NCBI GenBank assembly: GCA_005883575.1
Contig: VBFH01000068.1
Coordinates: forward strand, 1-38,527
Source: Chloroflexota bacterium
GTDB taxonomy: Bacteria > Chloroflexota > Dormibacteria > Dormibacterales > Dormibacteraceae
Direction: 5' to 3'
DNA length: 38,527 bases
The position numbers and the translations under genes are program-made. Position 1 is the first letter of the stretch. Every line of letters starts with the position of its first letter. Shown one piece after another: positions 21,698 through 30,628 of the stretch. Under the pieces are notes generated by a model. That model saw nothing but the letters and a program-made list of their open reading frames with translations, ran no database searches and was not told the origin of the DNA.

Positions 21698-22375
21698 ATG
21701 ACTGTCCGTCCTGGCCGCAATTTCCGCGAGCCGAAAGCAATCGAACTGCTTGCATTTGCCTACGCTCTGGGCGTCGCCGGCACTCTGTGGGACTGGCGGG
21801 AGCATCTCCTTGGTCCAGGCACGCAGCCCCCACACCTTGTCATCGACCTGGGCGGCCTGGTGGTCATCTCGGCGCTGGCATTCAGTGGCAGGATCGATCT
21901 CCGCTCGCGAACGTTCATCGCCCTCTATGTGCTTTTGGTACTGGTCGTGCTGGTCGCCTTCGGCCCCTTCGTTCTCATGATGGCCGCTCCCAGAAGCTCC
22001 CTGATGGCGAGCCTGATGCACTCGATGATGTCGAGTGGGGCCCTACTTGCGTACCTGCCGCTGGTGTTGCTTGCCAGCTGGAGTGCGTGGCGGTGGCTGT
22101 CGCAAGACCGTCTCAATTGGTGGCGCTTAGCCACAGCGCTTGGAATCGTCGTGGTCGCCATCGCAACCGTGTGGGACCTGTATTGGCACCAGACGCATCC
22201 CATGGAGCTGCGGACATCGATGGCGGGGCTGCCGCCGCATCAGGCGATACTTGCCGGTTTCCTGATCGGACTGATTGGTACCGGTTGGGGAGCTGCCCTC
22301 GGCATCAATCGGGCTGAGTTCCGATCTCAGACGACCGGGGGCGCGATCGAGAACGCGGCATCGAAGTCGAAATAG
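21698..22375 (+). CDS. Multi-pass membrane protein of unknown family
   Basis: The ATG at 21698 opens a 225-residue protein with about six hydrophobic segments. Charged, His/Met-bearing loops include TLWDWREHLLGPGTQPPHL, MHSMMSSG and YWHQTHPMELRTSM followed by AGLPPHQA. The conserved-looking Trp/His/Met loops suggest metal or quinone contact, but no named family is recognised. It shares a divergent promoter region with the Met-rich protein, and its last 49 bp overlap the end of the convergent CopC-CopD gene. Confidence 0.75.
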   Translation: MTVRPGRNFREPKAIELLAFAYALGVAGTLWDWREHLLGPGTQPPHLVIDLGGLVVISALAFSGRIDLRSRTFIALYVLLVLVVLVAFGPFVLMMAAPRSSLMASLMHSMMSSGALLAYLPLVLLASWSAWRWLSQDRLNWWRLATALGIVVVAIATVWDLYWHQTHPMELRTSMAGLPPHQAILAGFLIGLIGTGWGAALGINRAEFRSQTTGGAIENAASKSK

Positions 22376-24543
22376 CGTTGGTCCATGAAATGACCCCGCG
22401 CTCGCATTTCCGTCTGGCGGGCCAATCCCTGACCGTCGACGACTAGGCGGAACCAAACCGGACTTCCATAAGGGGCCTCAAAGAACGAGACCACCTGCTC
22501 ACCGCCGGGTTCACCTGCGTCGACGACCCTCGCGTCCTGTATCGGACCGGAATCCCATGCGAAATCCGGAACATGGATCGGGAGGGTGGTCTCTGCCACC
22601 CACCGTTCGGTCGGAGTTGACCGCGAGTAGCGGACCGAGCCGATGATCACCGTTTCGCCGCCGGTCGAGAGCTGATAGCTGAGCCGATCGGGTGACTGAA
22701 ACGCGTACAGAGTGCGGAGCGGCTGCGACGACGGCCCGAGCGTTTCGTCGATGCGGTAATCACTCAATTGGTGCATGGCGCGCTGAAGCGTTTCCACGAC
22801 GGCGGTTCCGTCCGGTGCCGGCAGCCGCGGAAGCTTGAAGACAGCCGCGTCGTGGCCGGTGCCGAGCAGCACTGAGATGGACTCACCACCTGTGAGGCTG
22901 GCGGACGCGGTGGCGCAGGTGGGCCCGCACCGGCGAGCGCCCAAGTCCCGACCGTCGACCTGAATCCTCACCGCCCTCTGTGCTGCAGCGGCTTCTCCCG
23001 AGACCGGCATGACGTACACCCAGAGCGTGTTCTGGCCCGGTCTTCCGGGTCGGATGGTCAGACCGACGACTGAGTCACTGGCGCTGCCACCGAGGGTCAG
23101 GTCACCGGGCTGTGGCAGCGCGAGCGCCGACTCCGGGCCGGCCAAGCCGGCCTCCGCCTCCGCCAGGCGCGCCGGTGGGAGTGGAAACGCCGCGAGCAGT
23201 GCGGACGCGGAAACGACCACCAAGACGATCGCGGCTTCGAGCCTGGGCCTAGGCTGCAGACGGCGCCAGGCAAGCACCGAGAGAGGCAGCATCGCCCCGA
23301 CTGCGACGAGCTTGAACGCGAGGACGTTTCCGTAGGTCGACTGGAGGAGATCGAGTGGGCTGCTCAGCTCTTCGACTGCTTGGAGCAGGCCGGTCAATGC
23401 GGTCAGGGAAAACGCGATCAGCGCAACTGGGGTGAAGCGCTTGAGTAGCACTCGAGACTCCGGGCTCCTCCAGCCACCGGACCCTCGGATGGCGGCAAGA
23501 GCCAGGATCCCGCCTGCCCAGAGGCCCGCGCTCGCCAGGTGTATCGCGTCGACCGCGATTGCTGGTGCGGCGGGTCGTACCGCCGCGGCGTGGCCGGCCG
23601 CGGCCAGAGCCGTGATTGCTGCGAACACGAGGATGGTCACCCCGCGGACCCCCAGCATTGCCAGGATCAGAGCAGCCGCCTCGAATCCGAGCCTAAGGAG
23701 GCGGGCATAGCCCGGCTCACCGCCGCTCAGATAGGTCGCAATCCCGCCTGGGCTCAAACCTCCCGCCGCCGACATTGATTCGCCAGCGACAACGGCGACG
23801 CCGCCCGCGAACGCCACCACCAGAGCGCCGACCAGCGGCCCTCGAACCCAGATCAGGCGCGGCGGATGGCTCGCAAGCTGACGAACCAGCAGCAGTCCGA
23901 TCGCCAGCAAAAGGGCACCGAATTCGACTGCTCTGGCCAGCGCAAGCAGCATGTCCGGGAGCCCGAGCGATGCCGAGTTGGCCTCGCCCGTCCCGACTGG
24001 GGATACGCCTACGCCGAAGACGAAGCTCCCTCGGAGGACGTGCCCGTCGACAGCGCTCACGGTAGTCCAGTCCACTCTGTAGACACCGAACTCGTTTCCA
24101 GAGATGGGACCTTCGGTCTCCTCGCTGGAGAGGCCGGCAGCTGCGAAGGTTCGGCCGAGAGGCGCGACTACCTGCGCTCGCGAGAGCTGGATGTTGATTG
24201 GCTCCGAGAAGTCAAGAACGACGACGCCGGGTGCCGACGAGAGACGTTGGCCAGGCAGAGGCTGTGAGGAGGTGAGGGTGGAATGGGCAGAGGCCGCATG
24301 TGGCATTAGCGCCAGCACAGCAGCTGCGAGTACGAACGCGCGCCCAATGCGAAGGGCCGGCGGCCGCGAGGCTATCGCGATACCTCGACCTCGACCTCCG
24401 ACTGGGCTGACTCCGCACCGCCCGTGCGTCGCCGATCGCTTGCCGGGCCGAGTTTCCAGGACCGATAGAGAGCTGTAATGACGACCAGGGCGAGCAAACC
24501 TAACGCGATCGCCTGGATCGCGGTCGGCAAGCTCCCGAGCCAA
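22327..24543 (-). CDS. CopC-CopD fusion with C-terminal lipoprotein-like domain
   Basis: A CopC domain follows a signal segment (RIGRAFVLAAAVLALM, cleavage after ASA). The mature chain begins AHSTLTSSQPLPGQRL, with the copper-binding first His, and ends in SAVDGHVLRGSFVFGVG. A CopD part of about eight membrane helices follows (from MLLALARAVEFGALLLAIGL to LLAAFPLPPA), then a soluble region with a DSVVGLTIRPGRPGQNTLWV segment and a final 150 residues resembling LolA/LppX-type domains. CopC/CopD take up or deliver periplasmic copper. The start is unsure: 24543 (TTG) is the first, but the signal peptide begins near 24330 and overlap with the CcdA-like gene implies a start around 24386 or later. 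Confidence 0.82.
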   Translation of the reverse strand: MARELADRDPGDRVRFARPGRHYSSLSVLETRPGKRSATHGRCGVSPVGGRGRGIAIASRPPALRIGRAFVLAAAVLALMPHAASAHSTLTSSQPLPGQRLSSAPGVVVLDFSEPINIQLSRAQVVAPLGRTFAAAGLSSEETEGPISGNEFGVYRVDWTTVSAVDGHVLRGSFVFGVGVSPVGTGEANSASLGLPDMLLALARAVEFGALLLAIGLLLVRQLASHPPRLIWVRGPLVGALVVAFAGGVAVVAGESMSAAGGLSPGGIATYLSGGEPGYARLLRLGFEAAALILAMLGVRGVTILVFAAITALAAAGHAAAVRPAAPAIAVDAIHLASAGLWAGGILALAAIRGSGGWRSPESRVLLKRFTPVALIAFSLTALTGLLQAVEELSSPLDLLQSTYGNVLAFKLVAVGAMLPLSVLAWRRLQPRPRLEAAIVLVVVSASALLAAFPLPPARLAEAEAGLAGPESALALPQPGDLTLGGSASDSVVGLTIRPGRPGQNTLWVYVMPVSGEAAAAQRAVRIQVDGRDLGARRCGPTCATASASLTGGESISVLLGTGHDAAVFKLPRLPAPDGTAVVETLQRAMHQLSDYRIDETLGPSSQPLRTLYAFQSPDRLSYQLSTGGETVIIGSVRYSRSTPTERWVAETTLPIHVPDFAWDSGPIQDARVVDAGEPGGEQVVSFFEAPYGSPVWFRLVVDGQGLARQTEMRARGHFMDQRYFDFDAAFSIAPPVV

Positions 24544-25298
24544 ACCGAGACGTTACCGGCCAGGCTGGTGGCCCAACGGTTCCACACCTCCAGCCACCCC
24601 GGGAGGTAGGTGCTCTGGCCGGTGTACGCGATGAGCAAAGCAAGCACACCGATGGTGAGAAACATGACCGCGGCAACAGCATCGGTCCACGGTAACGACC
24701 ATCCCCGAAGCCGGATGCGACGCGTTCGTAATGCGAAGCCACGTGAGACGGGGTGCATACGATCCCAAACCAGCACCGTGACGAGGAGCGGGAAGACCAT
24801 GCCGAATATGTAGGCGAGGCCAAGCCCCAGGGCGCCGGTCACAGATGAGGCAAGGGCAGATAGGGCTACGACTCCGGCGAGCACCGGCGCACAGCACGAG
24901 CTGGCGACGCCCGCGGTCAGGCCGAGGGCGAATATGCCGCCCGGCGTCGATCCGGAAACGCGAAGCCTCAGCATCGGGAACGGCAGCGACCAGGGCCGGC
25001 CCGAGAGCACCTGGAGCGCAAGAAGCACCAGGAACAATCCGACGACGAAGAAGATGACGCGGTGCTGCGCGGCAAGCAGCTGCCCGAGAAGTCCGACGCC
25101 GAGCACGATCGGCAGCATCACCGAAGCAATGCCGGCCGCGAAGATCGCCGCCATCGCGGGCAGCCGCAGGCGCCCGCGTTCGAGAGCTGCACCGACGAAT
25201 GTCGGCAACAGCGATACGACACAACAGGGTGCGAACAGGGCCAGCACGCCGCCGAGGAAGGCGGCAACGAGCGAGCTCGAGTAGACGAGCGCGTTCAT
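24372..25298 (-). CDS. CcdA/DsbD-like thiol transporter (1)
   Basis: A 308-residue protein with six to eight membrane helices. Paired-cysteine motifs sit in the first and fourth helices: LFAPCCVVSLLP and VASSCCAPVLAGV. CcdA/DsbD proteins carry electrons from cytoplasmic thioredoxin across the membrane to extracytoplasmic thioredoxin-like proteins. Here the motifs are CC doublets rather than a single Cys each. The ATG at 25298 overlaps the stop of the glutaredoxin-like gene by 4 bp, placing it in the leftward operon headed by the redoxin at 26203. Its natural partner is probably that redoxin. Confidence 0.85.
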   Translation of the reverse strand: MNALVYSSSLVAAFLGGVLALFAPCCVVSLLPTFVGAALERGRLRLPAMAAIFAAGIASVMLPIVLGVGLLGQLLAAQHRVIFFVVGLFLVLLALQVLSGRPWSLPFPMLRLRVSGSTPGGIFALGLTAGVASSCCAPVLAGVVALSALASSVTGALGLGLAYIFGMVFPLLVTVLVWDRMHPVSRGFALRTRRIRLRGWSLPWTDAVAAVMFLTIGVLALLIAYTGQSTYLPGWLEVWNRWATSLAGNVSVWLGSLPTAIQAIALGLLALVVITALYRSWKLGPASDRRRTGGAESAQSEVEVEVSR

Positions 25299-25546
25299 GA
25301 GACTCTAGCCAGACGGCGCCGGACCCCACCCTCAGAGATCCGGCCGTAGCCGAGCAGCTGATCACCGGCGTAGAGGGCGGGCGGAAACGGGACCCCGTCG
25401 CGACGAACGACATCGGCCTCCGGGCTATCCCAGGCGAGCTCATGGATCTCAAACTTGAGTTCAGTTGCCAGGCGCTGCGCGACGCTCCGCGCGTGTCCGC
25501 AAAGATGGCAGTCGACCGCGGTGACCAGGGTTAGGCGCGAGGTCAT
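25295..25546 (-). CDS. Glutaredoxin-like CxxC protein
   Basis: Eighty-three residues with the redox motif CHLC at positions 13-16 (LTLVTAVDCHLCGHA), an EIHELAWDSPEAD strand-turn, the cis-proline segment GVPFPPALYAGDQLLGYGR and a helical end. This is the compact DUF836/glutaredoxin type, acting on disulfides in the cytoplasm. It lies 6 bp after the redoxin and overlaps the CcdA-like gene by 4 bp, so the three are surely co-transcribed. It may feed electrons to the CcdA-like protein. Confidence 0.88.
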   Translation of the reverse strand: MTSRLTLVTAVDCHLCGHARSVAQRLATELKFEIHELAWDSPEADVVRRDGVPFPPALYAGDQLLGYGRISEGGVRRRLARVS

Positions 25547-25552
25547 CGAGGA

Positions 25553-26203
25553 TCAGGCCCTGACAGCTGCTACGACCTGGTCGACGGGGACATGCATGGA
25601 ATCCGGGGCCAACTGCTTCCAGGTCACACGCCCGGAGCCGTCGACCACGAAGATCGAATGGCCGTCGACCGCCCCCATGTCCATGCCGCTTGGCAGGCGG
25701 AACACCCCGAACCCGGAGCCAAGCACGTGATTCCGGTCCTCAAGGATAGGAAATCCGAGGTGGAGCTGAGCCGCAAGGGAGGCCGACGTGGCAGCCGGAT
25801 CGGTGCTCACGCCCACCACTTGACCGCCGGCAGCCTTGATTGCATCCAACTGTCCCTGCAGCTCCACGAGCTGCTGTTGACAGGCCCCTCAAGCGCCACC
25901 TTCATAGAAGTAGACGACCAACTTGGAGCCGCGGAAATCGGTCAGAGACACCGTGCGCCCATCGCTGGACGGAACAGAGTCGGTGGGCACGGGCGAACCC
26001 ACTGCCAGGCCACCGCTAGCGCCACCACCACCGCCGGAGCCTGCATGCCCGAGTTGCGTGACGGCGACAAACGCTGCAACGAGAACCACGACGCCGCCAG
26101 CAATTGCGTACGGCCACCACTTGCCTGAGGTGGAGCGGACTGGGGATCGCTTGGGCTTCGACTTCGTCCGGCCAGACGAAGGGACGCCGCGTTTCTCGCT
26201 CAT
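25553..26203 (-). CDS. Membrane-anchored thioredoxin-fold redoxin, candidate selenoprotein (U-x-x-C)
   Basis: Two abutting frames, 26203-25889 and 25867-25553, are in the same reading frame and are separated only by a TGA at 25889-25891. Read through, they form one 216-residue protein: a basic N-terminus, one membrane helix (YAIAGGVVVLVAAFVAV), a linker, the redoxin start GSPVPTDSVPSSDGRTVSL, SKLVVYFYEGGA-[UGA]-GACQQQLVELQG, VVGVSTDPAATSASLAAQL, FPILEDRNHVLGSGFGVFRL, HSIFVVDGSGRVTWKQL. This is the AhpC/TSA-redoxin fold. UGA occupies the first position of the expected CxxC at residue 105, and Cys108 is retained. A SECIS-like hairpin follows. A plain Cys-to-stop mutation is the alternative. It heads the leftward thiol/copper operon under operator 2. 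Confidence 0.75.
25850..25883 (-). promoter_or_regulatory. SECIS-like hairpin downstream of the UGA
   Basis: Counting from the base after UGA, positions 15-21 (GCAGCUC) pair perfectly with 25-31 (GAGCUGC) around a GUG loop, and 6-10 (CUGUC) pair with 35-39 (GACAG) below an internal loop. The loop is 21 nt from UGA and begins with G. This fits the published bacterial SECIS consensus as I recall it: loop 16-37 nt away, small, with an early G. Confidence 0.65.
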
Positions 26204-26231: not shown

Positions 26232-26957
26232 TCAGATTGGAGGCCAGTGGGCGTTCGCGTACCAGGCTAAGACCGGTGAGATCAAGGGCAGCCATCGATC
26301 GCTGACGAGCAAAACTCCCATCACAACCAGCAGAGCGCCCGACACGGGCTGGAGGGCCGCCGTGATGCGGCCGGCGGACCGCAACCAAAGCTGGACCCGA
26401 GCCACAGAGAGACCCAAGGCAAGAAAGGGCAAACCGAGGCCGAGGCTGTACGCCGTCAGCAGCAGCACACCCTGGCTCAAGCTCGCTGTTGTTCCGGCGA
26501 GGGTCAACACTGCACCCAAGACAGGTCCGATGCACGGGGTCCATGTGACCGCGAAAGCCGCCCCCAGAAGAGGCGCGGTCCCCAGCTTGCCTCCGGCCAT
26601 TCGCCGGCTCCAGTCGCCACCTCGACTGAGGAATCCGACACGGCCTTCAAGAAGCAGGAAGGCACCCATCACCGCAATGAAGACTCCGGCTACGCGCGCG
26701 ACCGGCACCCGGTTGTCGAGGAGCAACGCGCCAAGCTCAGACGCCGTTGCTCCCAGCGCGACGAATACCGCCGTGAAGCCGAGTACGAAAAGCGCTGCAG
26801 CCGCGATCGTGCGATTTCGGCGAGCTGGCTCGTCGCCGCCGAGCCCAGTCAGGTAGCCGAGGTATCCGGGCAGCAGCGGAAGACAGCATGGCGATGTGAT
26901 CGAGATGAGCCCAGCGACGAACGCGATCACAAGGCCCGGTTCGCCCACTCGGGGCAT
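26232..26957 (-). CDS. ccdA: CcdA-type cytochrome c biogenesis protein (2)
   Basis: Six membrane helices with the canonical single-cysteine-per-helix motifs of CcdA: ITSPCCLPLLPGYLGYLTGL in helix 1 and VTWTPCIGPVLGAVL in helix 4. CcdA transfers reducing power across the membrane to TlpA/CcmG/ResA-like thioredoxins. Two starts are possible, ATG 26975 (inside operator 3) and ATG 26957. The latter is preferred because the operator then lies wholly upstream. Length of about 241 residues is normal. It is divergent from the SCO-thioredoxin fusion and differs from the other CcdA-like protein, so the island has two. Confidence 0.88.
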   Translation of the reverse strand: MPRVGEPGLVIAFVAGLISITSPCCLPLLPGYLGYLTGLGGDEPARRNRTIAAAALFVLGFTAVFVALGATASELGALLLDNRVPVARVAGVFIAVMGAFLLLEGRVGFLSRGGDWSRRMAGGKLGTAPLLGAAFAVTWTPCIGPVLGAVLTLAGTTASLSQGVLLLTAYSLGLGLPFLALGLSVARVQLWLRSAGRITAALQPVSGALLVVMGVLLVSDRWLPLISPVLAWYANAHWPPI

Positions 26958-26962
26958 CCTAG

Positions 26963-26980
26963 TACTATCGGTCATTAGTA
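26963..26980. promoter_or_regulatory. BlaI-type operator 3 (TACTA-N8-TAGTA)
   Basis: An exact dyad in the divergent promoter region between ccdA (start 26957) and the SCO-thioredoxin fusion (start 26991), so one repressor dimer could block both. Confidence 0.75.
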
Positions 26981-26990
26981 ACGTGGGGGC

Positions 26991-28388
26991 ATGACGAGGC
27001 GCGCTCGGCTCATCCGGCGTGCGGCGCTGGGGGCGGCAATCGTGGTCGCCGCGGCCGTCTTGGGCCACCTCTTACTGACGCCGGTGACTGGAGACGTGCT
27101 CTTGCTGTTGACCGCCAGACAGGCAGACCATGTCGCCGCCACGTCAGTCGATCTGCATTCCGCTCAGGGTTGGATGACACTGGGGTCGATTCCGGCGCGC
27201 GCGGTGCCCAAAGCGCCAGAAACGGCTGAAGCTTTCTTGGCGCGGGTGCCCGTCGGGAGCTACGACCGCGTGCGCTTGGCCGGCGTATCCGTACCAGTGG
27301 CGCTCGTGGTGCAGAAGGACATCCTCAATCCGTTGCTGGTGGGTGTCGACGCTGGGCGACCGTTGCCAGACTCGGCGTACGGCGGGACAGAGGCGGTGAG
27401 CCTCGGGCTCAACGAGCTGTCCGGCCAGCTGAAGGCAATGCTCCCCTTCAGCTTGGTGGACCAATTCGGCCGCAACTTCACCAATGCCGACATCGCAGGT
27501 CATGACGTCCTGCTGGCTGCCTTTCACAGCAGCTGCCGGGAGACGTGCCCGCTCGTCGCGGGCCTCTTCCTCCAGCTACGCCAGCGGCTTCCGCCGTCGG
27601 TCCTCCTTGTCGAGGTCACGACGGATCCATCGGAGGACACGCCCTCTGTGCTGCGCGATTACGCCGGTCGCATCGGGGCGTCCTGGACCTTTGCCACTGC
27701 CGACCCCCAAACGCTAGCTGCCTTCTGGAAGCCCTTCGACGTCGTGCTGAGCACCAGCGATGTTCACCGCTCAAACCTGGCTTTGATCGACCGTCACGGC
27801 TACATCCGAACGTACTTCCTCGGTGCCCCTGATGTTGGTGGAACGCTGCCGGCTCCGCTGGACACGCAGCTCAGCGCCGCCGGCCGACAGCTCTTGTTGA
27901 CTCATGGCAACGGTTGGGGTGATTCACAGATCCTCGATGCTCTGCAGGCGGTCGGTGGCCTCGCATCGCCGTCCTCATCGGGCGGCGGCCCGGCGCCAGT
28001 GTTCACTCTGGACACGCTCGACGGCACACGCGTCAGCCTTGCCGACTTCCGAGGGCGTCCGGTTCTCATCAACTTCTGGGCGACCTATTGCGCGCCGTGC
28101 CGGCGCGAAATGCCGCTGATCGAACGGACCGCCGCGCAGCATCCCCGTCTTGTTGTCCTGCTCATCGACGAACGCGACAGCCACCAGTCAGCGTCTGCCT
28201 TCGTAAACGAGCTCCAAATCACCTCCGCTGTCCTGTTCGACGGTGACGGGAAGGTAGGCGATGCTTACGGAATCAGCGGTCTGCCGACGACCTTTTTCAT
28301 TCACCCCGAGGGCGGAATCGAGGGACGATACATCGGTGAGACCAACGCCGGAATTCTTGGCCCACACATCAGCGCGATCGGCGCGTAG
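26991..28388 (+). CDS. SCO1/SenC - TlpA-type thioredoxin fusion
   Basis: The ATG at 26991 follows GTGGGGGC. A basic N-terminus and one membrane helix anchor the 465-residue protein outside the membrane. Residues from about 140 to 290 form an SCO domain with the copper motif HSSCRETCP (Cys182, Cys186) and a His in TSDVHRSNLALIDRHG. SCO proteins deliver copper to the CuA site of cytochrome oxidase. From about 325 a TlpA/ResA-like thioredoxin domain follows (VFTLDTLDGTRVSLADFRG, NFWATYCAPCRREMP with Cys367/Cys370, cis-Pro in GLPTTFFI). Having the reductase and the copper chaperone in one chain fits the need to reduce SCO and CuA cysteines before loading. An N-terminal region (about 30-130) is unassigned. 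Confidence 0.88.
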   Translation: MTRRARLIRRAALGAAIVVAAAVLGHLLLTPVTGDVLLLLTARQADHVAATSVDLHSAQGWMTLGSIPARAVPKAPETAEAFLARVPVGSYDRVRLAGVSVPVALVVQKDILNPLLVGVDAGRPLPDSAYGGTEAVSLGLNELSGQLKAMLPFSLVDQFGRNFTNADIAGHDVLLAAFHSSCRETCPLVAGLFLQLRQRLPPSVLLVEVTTDPSEDTPSVLRDYAGRIGASWTFATADPQTLAAFWKPFDVVLSTSDVHRSNLALIDRHGYIRTYFLGAPDVGGTLPAPLDTQLSAAGRQLLLTHGNGWGDSQILDALQAVGGLASPSSSGGGPAPVFTLDTLDGTRVSLADFRGRPVLINFWATYCAPCRREMPLIERTAAQHPRLVVLLIDERDSHQSASAFVNELQITSAVLFDGDGKVGDAYGISGLPTTFFIHPEGGIEGRYIGETNAGILGPHISAIGA

Positions 28389-29426: not shown

Positions 29427-29828
29427 GTGATGACTCGACGGGACGATCAGCTGACACGGGCGATGTCACTGCTGGGTCCACTCGAGGGCAGGTTGATGAA
29501 GCTGATCTGGGACGGCCGCGTCCATGAGCCGTTCATCGTTCGCGACGTGCTTGCGCTGACACCGGAGCTCGCCTACACGACAGTCATGACCACTCTCAAC
29601 CGCCTGGCTGACAAAGGTCTTCTGAGCGTGTCGAAGATGGGCTCTCACCAGCCTCACAAATACCGGGCCAATGGGGGAGTGAAAGACTTCATGGCCGATT
29701 CGGGTCGCGCCCAGGTTGATCGCCTTGTCGAGCTCTACGGAGACGCCGCGCTCGCCGCCTTCGCCGCACGCCTCGACCGGCTGTCGCCGGCCACACGCGA
29801 GGCCCTCAAGAGGCTGCGCTCGCGGTGA
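29427..29828 (+). CDS. BlaI/MecI/CopY-family repressor
   Basis: A 133-residue winged-helix protein: LGPLEGRLMKLIWDGR, FIVRDVLALTPELAYTTVMT (recognition helix region), LNRLADKGLLSVSKMGSHQPHKYRA (wing), then a helical dimerisation tail. GTG 29427 or ATG 29430 starts it; no strong ribosome site is visible. Family members bind dyads with TACTA/TAGTA-type halves and are inactivated by proteolysis (BlaI, MecI) or by copper (CopY). No CopY-type CxC Cys cluster is present at the C-terminus, so direct copper sensing is unlikely, and the downstream protease is the probable trigger. Its own promoter holds operator 4. Confidence 0.92.
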   Translation: MMTRRDDQLTRAMSLLGPLEGRLMKLIWDGRVHEPFIVRDVLALTPELAYTTVMTTLNRLADKGLLSVSKMGSHQPHKYRANGGVKDFMADSGRAQVDRLVELYGDAALAAFAARLDRLSPATREALKRLRSR

Positions 29829-30628
29829 CCGGGCGCCGGCTGGCTCTGCTTGCTGTCCTGGCCGCGGTGCCAATTGCCTGCCTCAGCACGGTTGCCGGTT
29901 GCCAGTCGGGCGGAGCGTGCGGCTGGATTCCCACGCACGGTACGTCTTGGTGGCCCGCAGCCTACGTGCCGCCGCTGCTCGTAGTTTTGGCTTCGGCTTT
30001 GGCCTGCGCCCTCAAGTTCGGACTCGTGGCCTCGAGGACAGAGCGCGAGTTGGCAAGGTTGCCGCGCGTTTCCATCCCGCCAAAACTGGTGCGCACGGCC
30101 AGAGCAGCCGGCCTTGATCGCGTTGAATGTGTCCGAGCCGGATCCCCGGTCGCTTTCTGCGCAGGCATTCTTCGGCACACCGTGTTCATCAGTGAAGCGG
30201 CGGTTGCAGGCCTGGCCGACTCCGAGCTGCTGGCCGTGCTTCACCACGAAGCTGACCACGCGCGGCGCCACGAACCGCTGTGGCGAGCAGCCAGAACCGC
30301 TGCGGCGGAGGTTCTCACCTTCCTTCCCATCGTCGGCTGGTGGTCAGAGCGTCAGATCACGCTGTCTGAGCTGAGTGCAGATGCGGCCGCCGAGCGGATG
30401 GTGGGCCGATCCGCGCTCGCCGGGGCCCTTCTGGTAATGACCGCCCCAGCGATCCCGCTGGCAGCCTTTGTAGGCCACGCCGAGCTGCGTGCTCGTCGAC
30501 TGCTCGGCATGCGAAGCGATGAGCCAAAAGCTCCGCGGGCGGTGTGGGCGGCAAGCTTTGTTTACTCGTGGCTCGCCATCAGCCTGGCTGGATGTCTATT
30601 CGCGGTTGTGGTTTCGCTTACGCATTAG
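29825..30628 (+). CDS. Membrane M56/M48-type metalloprotease (BlaR1-like, no sensor domain)
   Basis: The start GTG overlaps the repressor stop (GTGA). The chain of 267 residues has N-terminal membrane helices, then a zinc-protease core with HEADH at 141-145 (LHHEADHARRHEP) and a third-ligand helix ELSADAAAE, and further membrane segments. BlaR1/MecR1 proteases destroy their partner repressor when a penicillin-binding sensor domain is occupied. Here that sensor domain is missing, so another signal must act. N-terminal cysteines (ACL..GCQSGGACG) face outward or lie in the membrane and could sense copper or thiols; this is a hypothesis. Confidence 0.85.
   Translation: MTGRRLALLAVLAAVPIACLSTVAGCQSGGACGWIPTHGTSWWPAAYVPPLLVVLASALACALKFGLVASRTERELARLPRVSIPPKLVRTARAAGLDRVECVRAGSPVAFCAGILRHTVFISEAAVAGLADSELLAVLHHEADHARRHEPLWRAARTAAAEVLTFLPIVGWWSERQITLSELSADAAAERMVGRSALAGALLVMTAPAIPLAAFVGHAELRARRLLGMRSDEPKAPRAVWAASFVYSWLAISLAGCLFAVVVSLTH

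Follow-up and report, generated by a model that had tools for sequence, protein, structure and literature searches.

Does an in-frame TGA in the middle of a redoxin gene mark a broken gene, or is it a codon for selenocysteine (Sec)? The question is raised by a window of 38,527 nucleotides, the whole stretch of DNA that was analysed, from a Chloroflexota genome. On the minus strand of this window, an ORF from 26203 to 25889 specifies 104 amino acids followed by a TGA, and a second ORF of 104 amino acids, in a common frame with the first, ends at 25553. The initial annotation held that the two ORFs are joined by this one TGA (25891-25889) precisely at a redox motif in which Cys108 is kept (U-x-x-C), and the sequence bears out this description; read-through yields the motif YFYEGGA-U-GACQQQL. 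The genes for CcdA1, the redoxin, a Grx-like protein, and CcdA2 run in a common direction, with small gaps on either side of the redoxin gene (Table 1). We report herein that 25553-26203 is, as judged from its sequence and those of its relatives, a single gene for a 216-residue selenoprotein, neither a pseudogene nor two ORFs. The probability that its product is a Sec-decoded, membrane-anchored Prx-like redoxin is put at about 0.96.

Table 1. Predicted features of the redoxin locus and its neighbours (window positions)
Feature	Position	Strand	Basis or remark
Selenoprotein redoxin gene	25553..26203	-	Read-through product of 216 aa with U105; Pfam AhpC-TSA and Redoxin
Terminator TGA of the redoxin gene	25555-25553	-	Homologous ends in orthologues: TGA, TAA or TAG
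UGA, selenocysteine 105, first position of UxxC	25889..25891	-	Nine other loci also have TGA; L072/L030 has TGC
Cys108 codon, second position of UxxC	25880..25882	-	In alignment, at the peroxidatic Cys position (T-x-x-C) of PrxQ relatives
bSECIS hairpin GCAGCUC-GUG-GAGCUGC, 7 bp	25858..25874	-	Loop 25867-25865, 21 nt after the UGA; conservation and published criteria
N-terminal transmembrane anchor, about residues 30-52	26048..26116	-	Sequence, orthologues, and model helix 38-51 (low confidence there)
Grx-like protein (CHLC), 83 aa, second cassette gene	25295..25546	-	After the redoxin gene in most loci
CcdA2, CcdA/DsbD_TM-like membrane protein (APCC...SSCCAP), 308 aa, third cassette gene	24372..25298	-	Profile comparison
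CcdA1, CcdA/DsbD_TM	26232..27068	-	Pfam DsbD_TM, 67.7 bits; immediately upstream of the redoxin gene
CopC-CopD fusion protein	22327..24543	-	Pfam CopC and CopD; downstream, common direction
SCO1/SenC-TlpA fusion	26991..28388	+	Pfam SCO1-SenC, 67.8 bits, and AhpC-TSA, 84.8 bits; divergent

The UGA codon among orthologues

Orthologues were sought class-wide in 110 genomes, together with a named-genome scan. Nine further loci, with identities of 96, 92 and about 52-58%, carry a single TGA at the homologous codon. In a tenth orthologue (G047/L072), for which identity ranges over 47-50% with the alignment used, this codon is TGC, giving CGAC, and the protein reads FYEGATCGACQQQL; the gene forms one ORF through the site and belongs to a redoxin-Grx-CcdA2 cassette. 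The initial annotation had set two outcomes against a Sec reading, namely homologues lacking a redox residue at this site and reads with TGC or TGT in place of TGA. Neither was found: the relatives possess UGA or Cys, and independent assemblies show the TGA again. All UGA and TGC loci come from MAGs of related soil Chloroflexota, several of them apparently from soil cores according to scaffold names.

Changes in the half of the gene that follows the UGA were counted against two close relatives, giving a dN/dS of 0.04 for L063 (21 synonymous and three nonsynonymous changes) and of 0 for L064 (23 synonymous and none nonsynonymous). An ordinary Cys redoxin broken by a TGA, through decay or a sequencing error, would account for a gene split by a stop codon, and decay elsewhere in the window was described in the first reading. 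However, since the UGA is conserved at the homologous codon across nine other loci from several assemblies (52-96% identity), and since the changes after it are overwhelmingly synonymous, as under purifying selection, a pseudogene or sequencing error is excluded for all practical purposes. A conserved SECIS hairpin and the presence of sel genes in the genome, both described below, likewise speak against it.

It might also be supposed that one operon encodes two proteins here, a 104-residue anchor and a 104-residue protein that begins at an internal GTG, a Val codon in the hairpin loop that starts a 104-aa ORF. Initiation there would nonetheless drop Cys108 and the redox helix, while residues U105 to Q109 are kept as protein in the orthologue alignment and the TGC orthologue reads through the site as one ORF, so that this arrangement is hardly credible. 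Least probable is a genome-wide reassignment of UGA, for example to Gly or Trp, which would make an in-frame UGA an ordinary codon. The redoxin gene itself stops with TGA where the homologous stop is TAA in L066 and TAG in L069; UGA is therefore not reassigned throughout the genome. Moreover, SelA, SelB and SelD have long frames with no internal stop other than the Sec UGA expected in SelD, and the residue aligned with the in-frame UGA of the redoxin is Cys.

The SECIS hairpin and the Sec machinery

Bacterial SECIS (bSECIS) elements have been defined by a stem of 4-16 bp, a loop of 3-9 nt with a G in the first two loop positions, a distance of 16-37 nt from the UGA, and an MFE of -7.5 or lower (PMC13188914). 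The hairpin of the window lies within every one of these limits (7 bp, GUG, 21 nt and -11.6 kcal/mol). Taken from one sequence alone, this hairpin is unremarkable and no strong evidence for Sec, as a 7-bp stem with acceptable geometry arises in 22% of cases when the window gene is recoded synonymously. It rises above chance because it is conserved across loci and not because of the single structure. The 7-bp stem occurs in nine of the ten UGA members, with the most divergent (L071) having 6 bp round a CGUGA loop, and the hairpin is lost in the TGC (Cys) orthologue. Synonymous codon conservation is highest at codons +5 to +10, which make up the hairpin. A near-identical hairpin at the same distance from the UGA is found in a separate clade of Chloroflexota Sec redoxins with the motif FYRAFW-U-xx-CR, and pair 21-31 is G-C in some genes and A-U in others, both of its bases lying at synonymous codon positions (the third base of a Gln codon and the first base of a Leu codon). 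Over both Sec-redoxin clades, the paired share of the pair cells is 97.5%, compared with 13-55% in slid controls. The 7-bp stem first noted, whose GUG loop lies 21 nt beyond the UGA, is thus a conserved property of the UGA genes and has the appearance of a functional bacterial SECIS hairpin; an Rfam search gave no SECIS match. The second stem, of 5 bp, which had been proposed along with it, does form in the window; over a set of ten orthologues, however, no more than 58% of its pairs are made, and it therefore lies outside the conserved element.

The window genome (G000; 3.6 Mb, 95.5% complete) contains SelA (510 bits) adjoining SelB (345 bits), a tRNA-Sec with the anticodon UCA (71 bits), and SelD (337 bits; L019 on C86), which has its own in-frame UGA in HGAG-U-ACK. 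Two FdhA-like loci of the same genome (L103 on C103 and L104 on C38) carry a UGA before HxP motifs, and a GU-loop hairpin comes after it. The Sec machinery is thus present and in use by other genes, and the absence of sel genes, which the initial annotation had named as a ground for rejection, can be dismissed. SelA was also found in G069, G105, G052, G060, G064, G149 and G455. G061, an incomplete assembly, has only a SelA fragment, with SelB below the cut-off, and in G149, the assembly of which is incomplete as well, no SelB match reached E<=1e-60.

Conservation of UGA or Cys at the site, the sel genes, and the conserved hairpin together bear out the proposal of a true Sec redoxin with UxxC, and on such comparative evidence the Sec reading of the gene may be regarded as established. 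SelB and Sec-tRNA(UCA) would decode the UGA as Sec105, with the hairpin that follows after 21 nt as guide, and translation of the redoxin mRNA would end at the second TGA.

An anchored redoxin with a known redox centre

The read-through protein matches Pfam AhpC-TSA (80.5 bits; cut-off 26) and Redoxin (60.9 bits; cut-off 26.6). A structure model, weak overall (mean pLDDT 57) and better at about residues 90-150, has a thioredoxin-type fold in which U105 directly precedes the first residue of helix 106-117; the nearest PDB structures are PrxQ, AhpC/AhpE and ResA. Scores for the narrower NCBIfam families stay below their cut-offs (PRK09437, 61.6 against 140 bits; AhpC equivalog, 29.6 against 272 bits; ResA, 34.5 against 170 bits), and a PHROGs search gave an unannotated weak match only. 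In the alignment, U105 falls at the Prx Thr position and Cys108 at that of the peroxidatic Cys. The Prx active site, PxxxT/S-xx-C, is accordingly absent, its Thr position being taken by Sec or Cys.

A hydrophobic N-terminal segment follows a Lys/Arg-rich tail in every full-length orthologue. This N terminus is probably cytoplasmic, and the catalytic domain is predicted by the positive-inside rule to lie outside the membrane, in agreement with the earlier suggestion of a membrane-anchored, outward-facing protein. Both the predicted fold and the anchor are well supported.

A 'Prx-like thiol:disulfide oxidoreductase, UxxC' (PF00578, representative WP_010940744.1) and a 'Redoxin family protein' with UxxC (PF08534) are catalogued selenoproteins (PMC13188914, PMC9312934), and 'Prx-like, UXXC' selenoproteins, defined by UxxC replacing the TxxC of Prx, were described in a survey of the Sargasso Sea (PMC1088965). 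The window redoxin resembles them in its Pfam domain, in a bacterial SECIS just downstream, and in having UxxC where Prx proteins align TxxC/TxxU. Because fold and motif are those of known selenoproteins, the redox centre is not new, and the suggestion of an undescribed family, made in the initial annotation in that it knew of none with such an architecture and context, is not supported (PMC1088965, PMC9312934, PMC13188914). What distinguishes the present protein from their descriptions is the N-terminal membrane anchor, the Grx/CcdA cassette, and the motifs FYE-xxx-UGAC-Q-QLVEL and GMDMG.

Other relatives differ in other ways. The FYRAFW-U-xx-CR redoxins (L083-L102) share about 31-34% identity, the UxxC position and the near-identical hairpin with the window protein, whereas most of them have a lipobox-like N terminus and a long Pro/Ala-rich linker; no Grx/CcdA2 cassette was found within about 1.5 kb of their genes. 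They form a second Chloroflexota Sec-redoxin clade (L083, L085, L086, L089, L090, L094, L100 and L102). TlpA, ResA and CcmG are anchored, outward-facing reductases of thioredoxin fold near CcdA and SCO genes, and TlpA of Bradyrhizobium reduces ScoI and COX II (PMC6696091). The window protein shares with TlpA/ResA the combination of a membrane anchor and a CxxC/UxxC thioredoxin fold; those proteins, however, are Cys-only (CxxC), and the window sequence is closer to PrxQ/AhpC than to ResA. With PrxQ/BCP it shares the fold and a Cys at the peroxidatic position, but Sec replaces Thr, the resolving Cys at PrxQ +5 is missing, and the protein is anchored and probably extracytoplasmic.

Among open PMC papers, no link of this kind between a selenoprotein and CcdA was found, the papers retrieved being unrelated by title and abstract, and nothing was found on selenoproteins together with Dormibacteria or CF-121. 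An anchored subfamily in a redoxin-Grx-CcdA cassette, with Sec and Cys forms, thus appears undescribed in the open PMC literature, and enlarges the selenoproteome of uncultivated Chloroflexota from soil by a cassette-linked member.

The gene cassette and its possible role

Of the ten UGA loci, seven have the genes for redoxin, Grx and CcdA2 side by side as a cassette (the window, L063, L065/L056, L066/L057, L069, L070 and L071), as does the Cys orthologue (L060/L072). L058 and L059 are without it, and the contig of L064 stops inside the gene. Distant Cys relatives from other Chloroflexota (L031, L081 and L084; FxEGxxC-xPCW, with E or Q directly before PCW) also keep the three genes, and some of them have a second redoxin copy. 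The contig of L070/L053 (G060:C154) bears the cassette twice, in facing orientation; of its redoxin copies, the complete one lacks about nine residues, among them the GMDMG motif, which is otherwise invariant. The Sec and Cys orthologues constitute a natural exchange pair within one cassette type, in which loss of the SECIS goes with the change to Cys. Since annotation may present such genes as two broken ORFs, the cassette and the hairpin together provide a means of finding them.

The CcdA-like neighbour suggested earlier is in fact represented twice, by CcdA1 upstream, which is present in the window and its two closest relatives, and by CcdA2 in the cassette. CcdA2 is related to CcdA1 in an hhalign comparison (E 1.1e-7), and one of seven CcdA2 members reaches 1.9e-5 with Pfam DsbD_TM. 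The L071 protein at the Grx position, missed by tblastn, passes the Pfam Glrx-like cut-off. As the Grx and CcdA2 of the window have no direct Pfam match, electron flow is something that we infer. Electrons from the cytoplasm would pass through one or more CcdA-like membrane proteins to the Sec-Cys pair of an AhpC/TSA-fold redoxin, held by one N-terminal helix and facing outside according to the positive-inside rule. The Grx-like protein would perhaps feed CcdA2, as donor or partner, and the Sec-Cys pair would reduce disulfides outside the cytoplasm, much as TlpA/ResA do. Such a reductive thiol/selenol relay via CcdA, of presumed direction and donor, is an account that we favour by a little.

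The main functional rival is that the selenoprotein is real and acts as a PrxQ/AhpE-like peroxidase at the outer face of the membrane instead of as a thiol-disulfide reductase for copper proteins. The best Pfam, NCBIfam and PDB matches are indeed peroxiredoxins, and Cys108 occupies the peroxidatic position. Nevertheless, Sec or Cys in place of the Thr before that Cys makes the motif a thioredoxin-type UxxC/CxxC, and the Grx and CcdA-like neighbours fit a reductive relay, although a CcdA relay could supply a peroxidase too. A peroxidase thus deserves serious attention, at odds of roughly one in three.

A copper context had also been proposed, and copper or metal genes do recur in the neighbourhood of several loci: the window and L069 have CopC-CopD, the window and L064 have SCO1-TlpA, L056 and L071 have HMA-type P-type ATPases, and L060 has HMBD. 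However, these neighbours vary between loci, so the recurrent link to copper is circumstantial, an association and not a demonstration, and a role in copper handling is plausible. If reduction is the function of the redoxin, copper-handling proteins would be candidate substrates, for instance the neighbouring SCO1/SenC-TlpA fusion, a possible partner or substrate; we hold the idea of a copper protein as substrate only tentatively. Residues M174, M176 and H182 are invariant in eight aligned orthologues, and copper binding by them is a speculation. A bolder and rather unlikely extension would be a dedicated selenium pathway for transmembrane reduction in soil Chloroflexota, in which CcdA2 and Grx feed the Sec redoxin, the conserved Met/His residues (GMDMG-x-V-D-x-H) bind or sense copper, and selenium chemistry protects or metallates copper sites. 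The use of selenium for thiol reduction outside the membrane in copper handling is hereby made testable.

A further gene pair of the window (29427-30628, plus strand), beside the genes for redox and copper proteins, specifies a regulator of BlaI/MecI-like type together with an M56/BlaR1-like membrane protease, families assigned by inspection. Homologues of this pair lie near the redoxin gene in L056, L060 and L064, which suggests a linked regulator.
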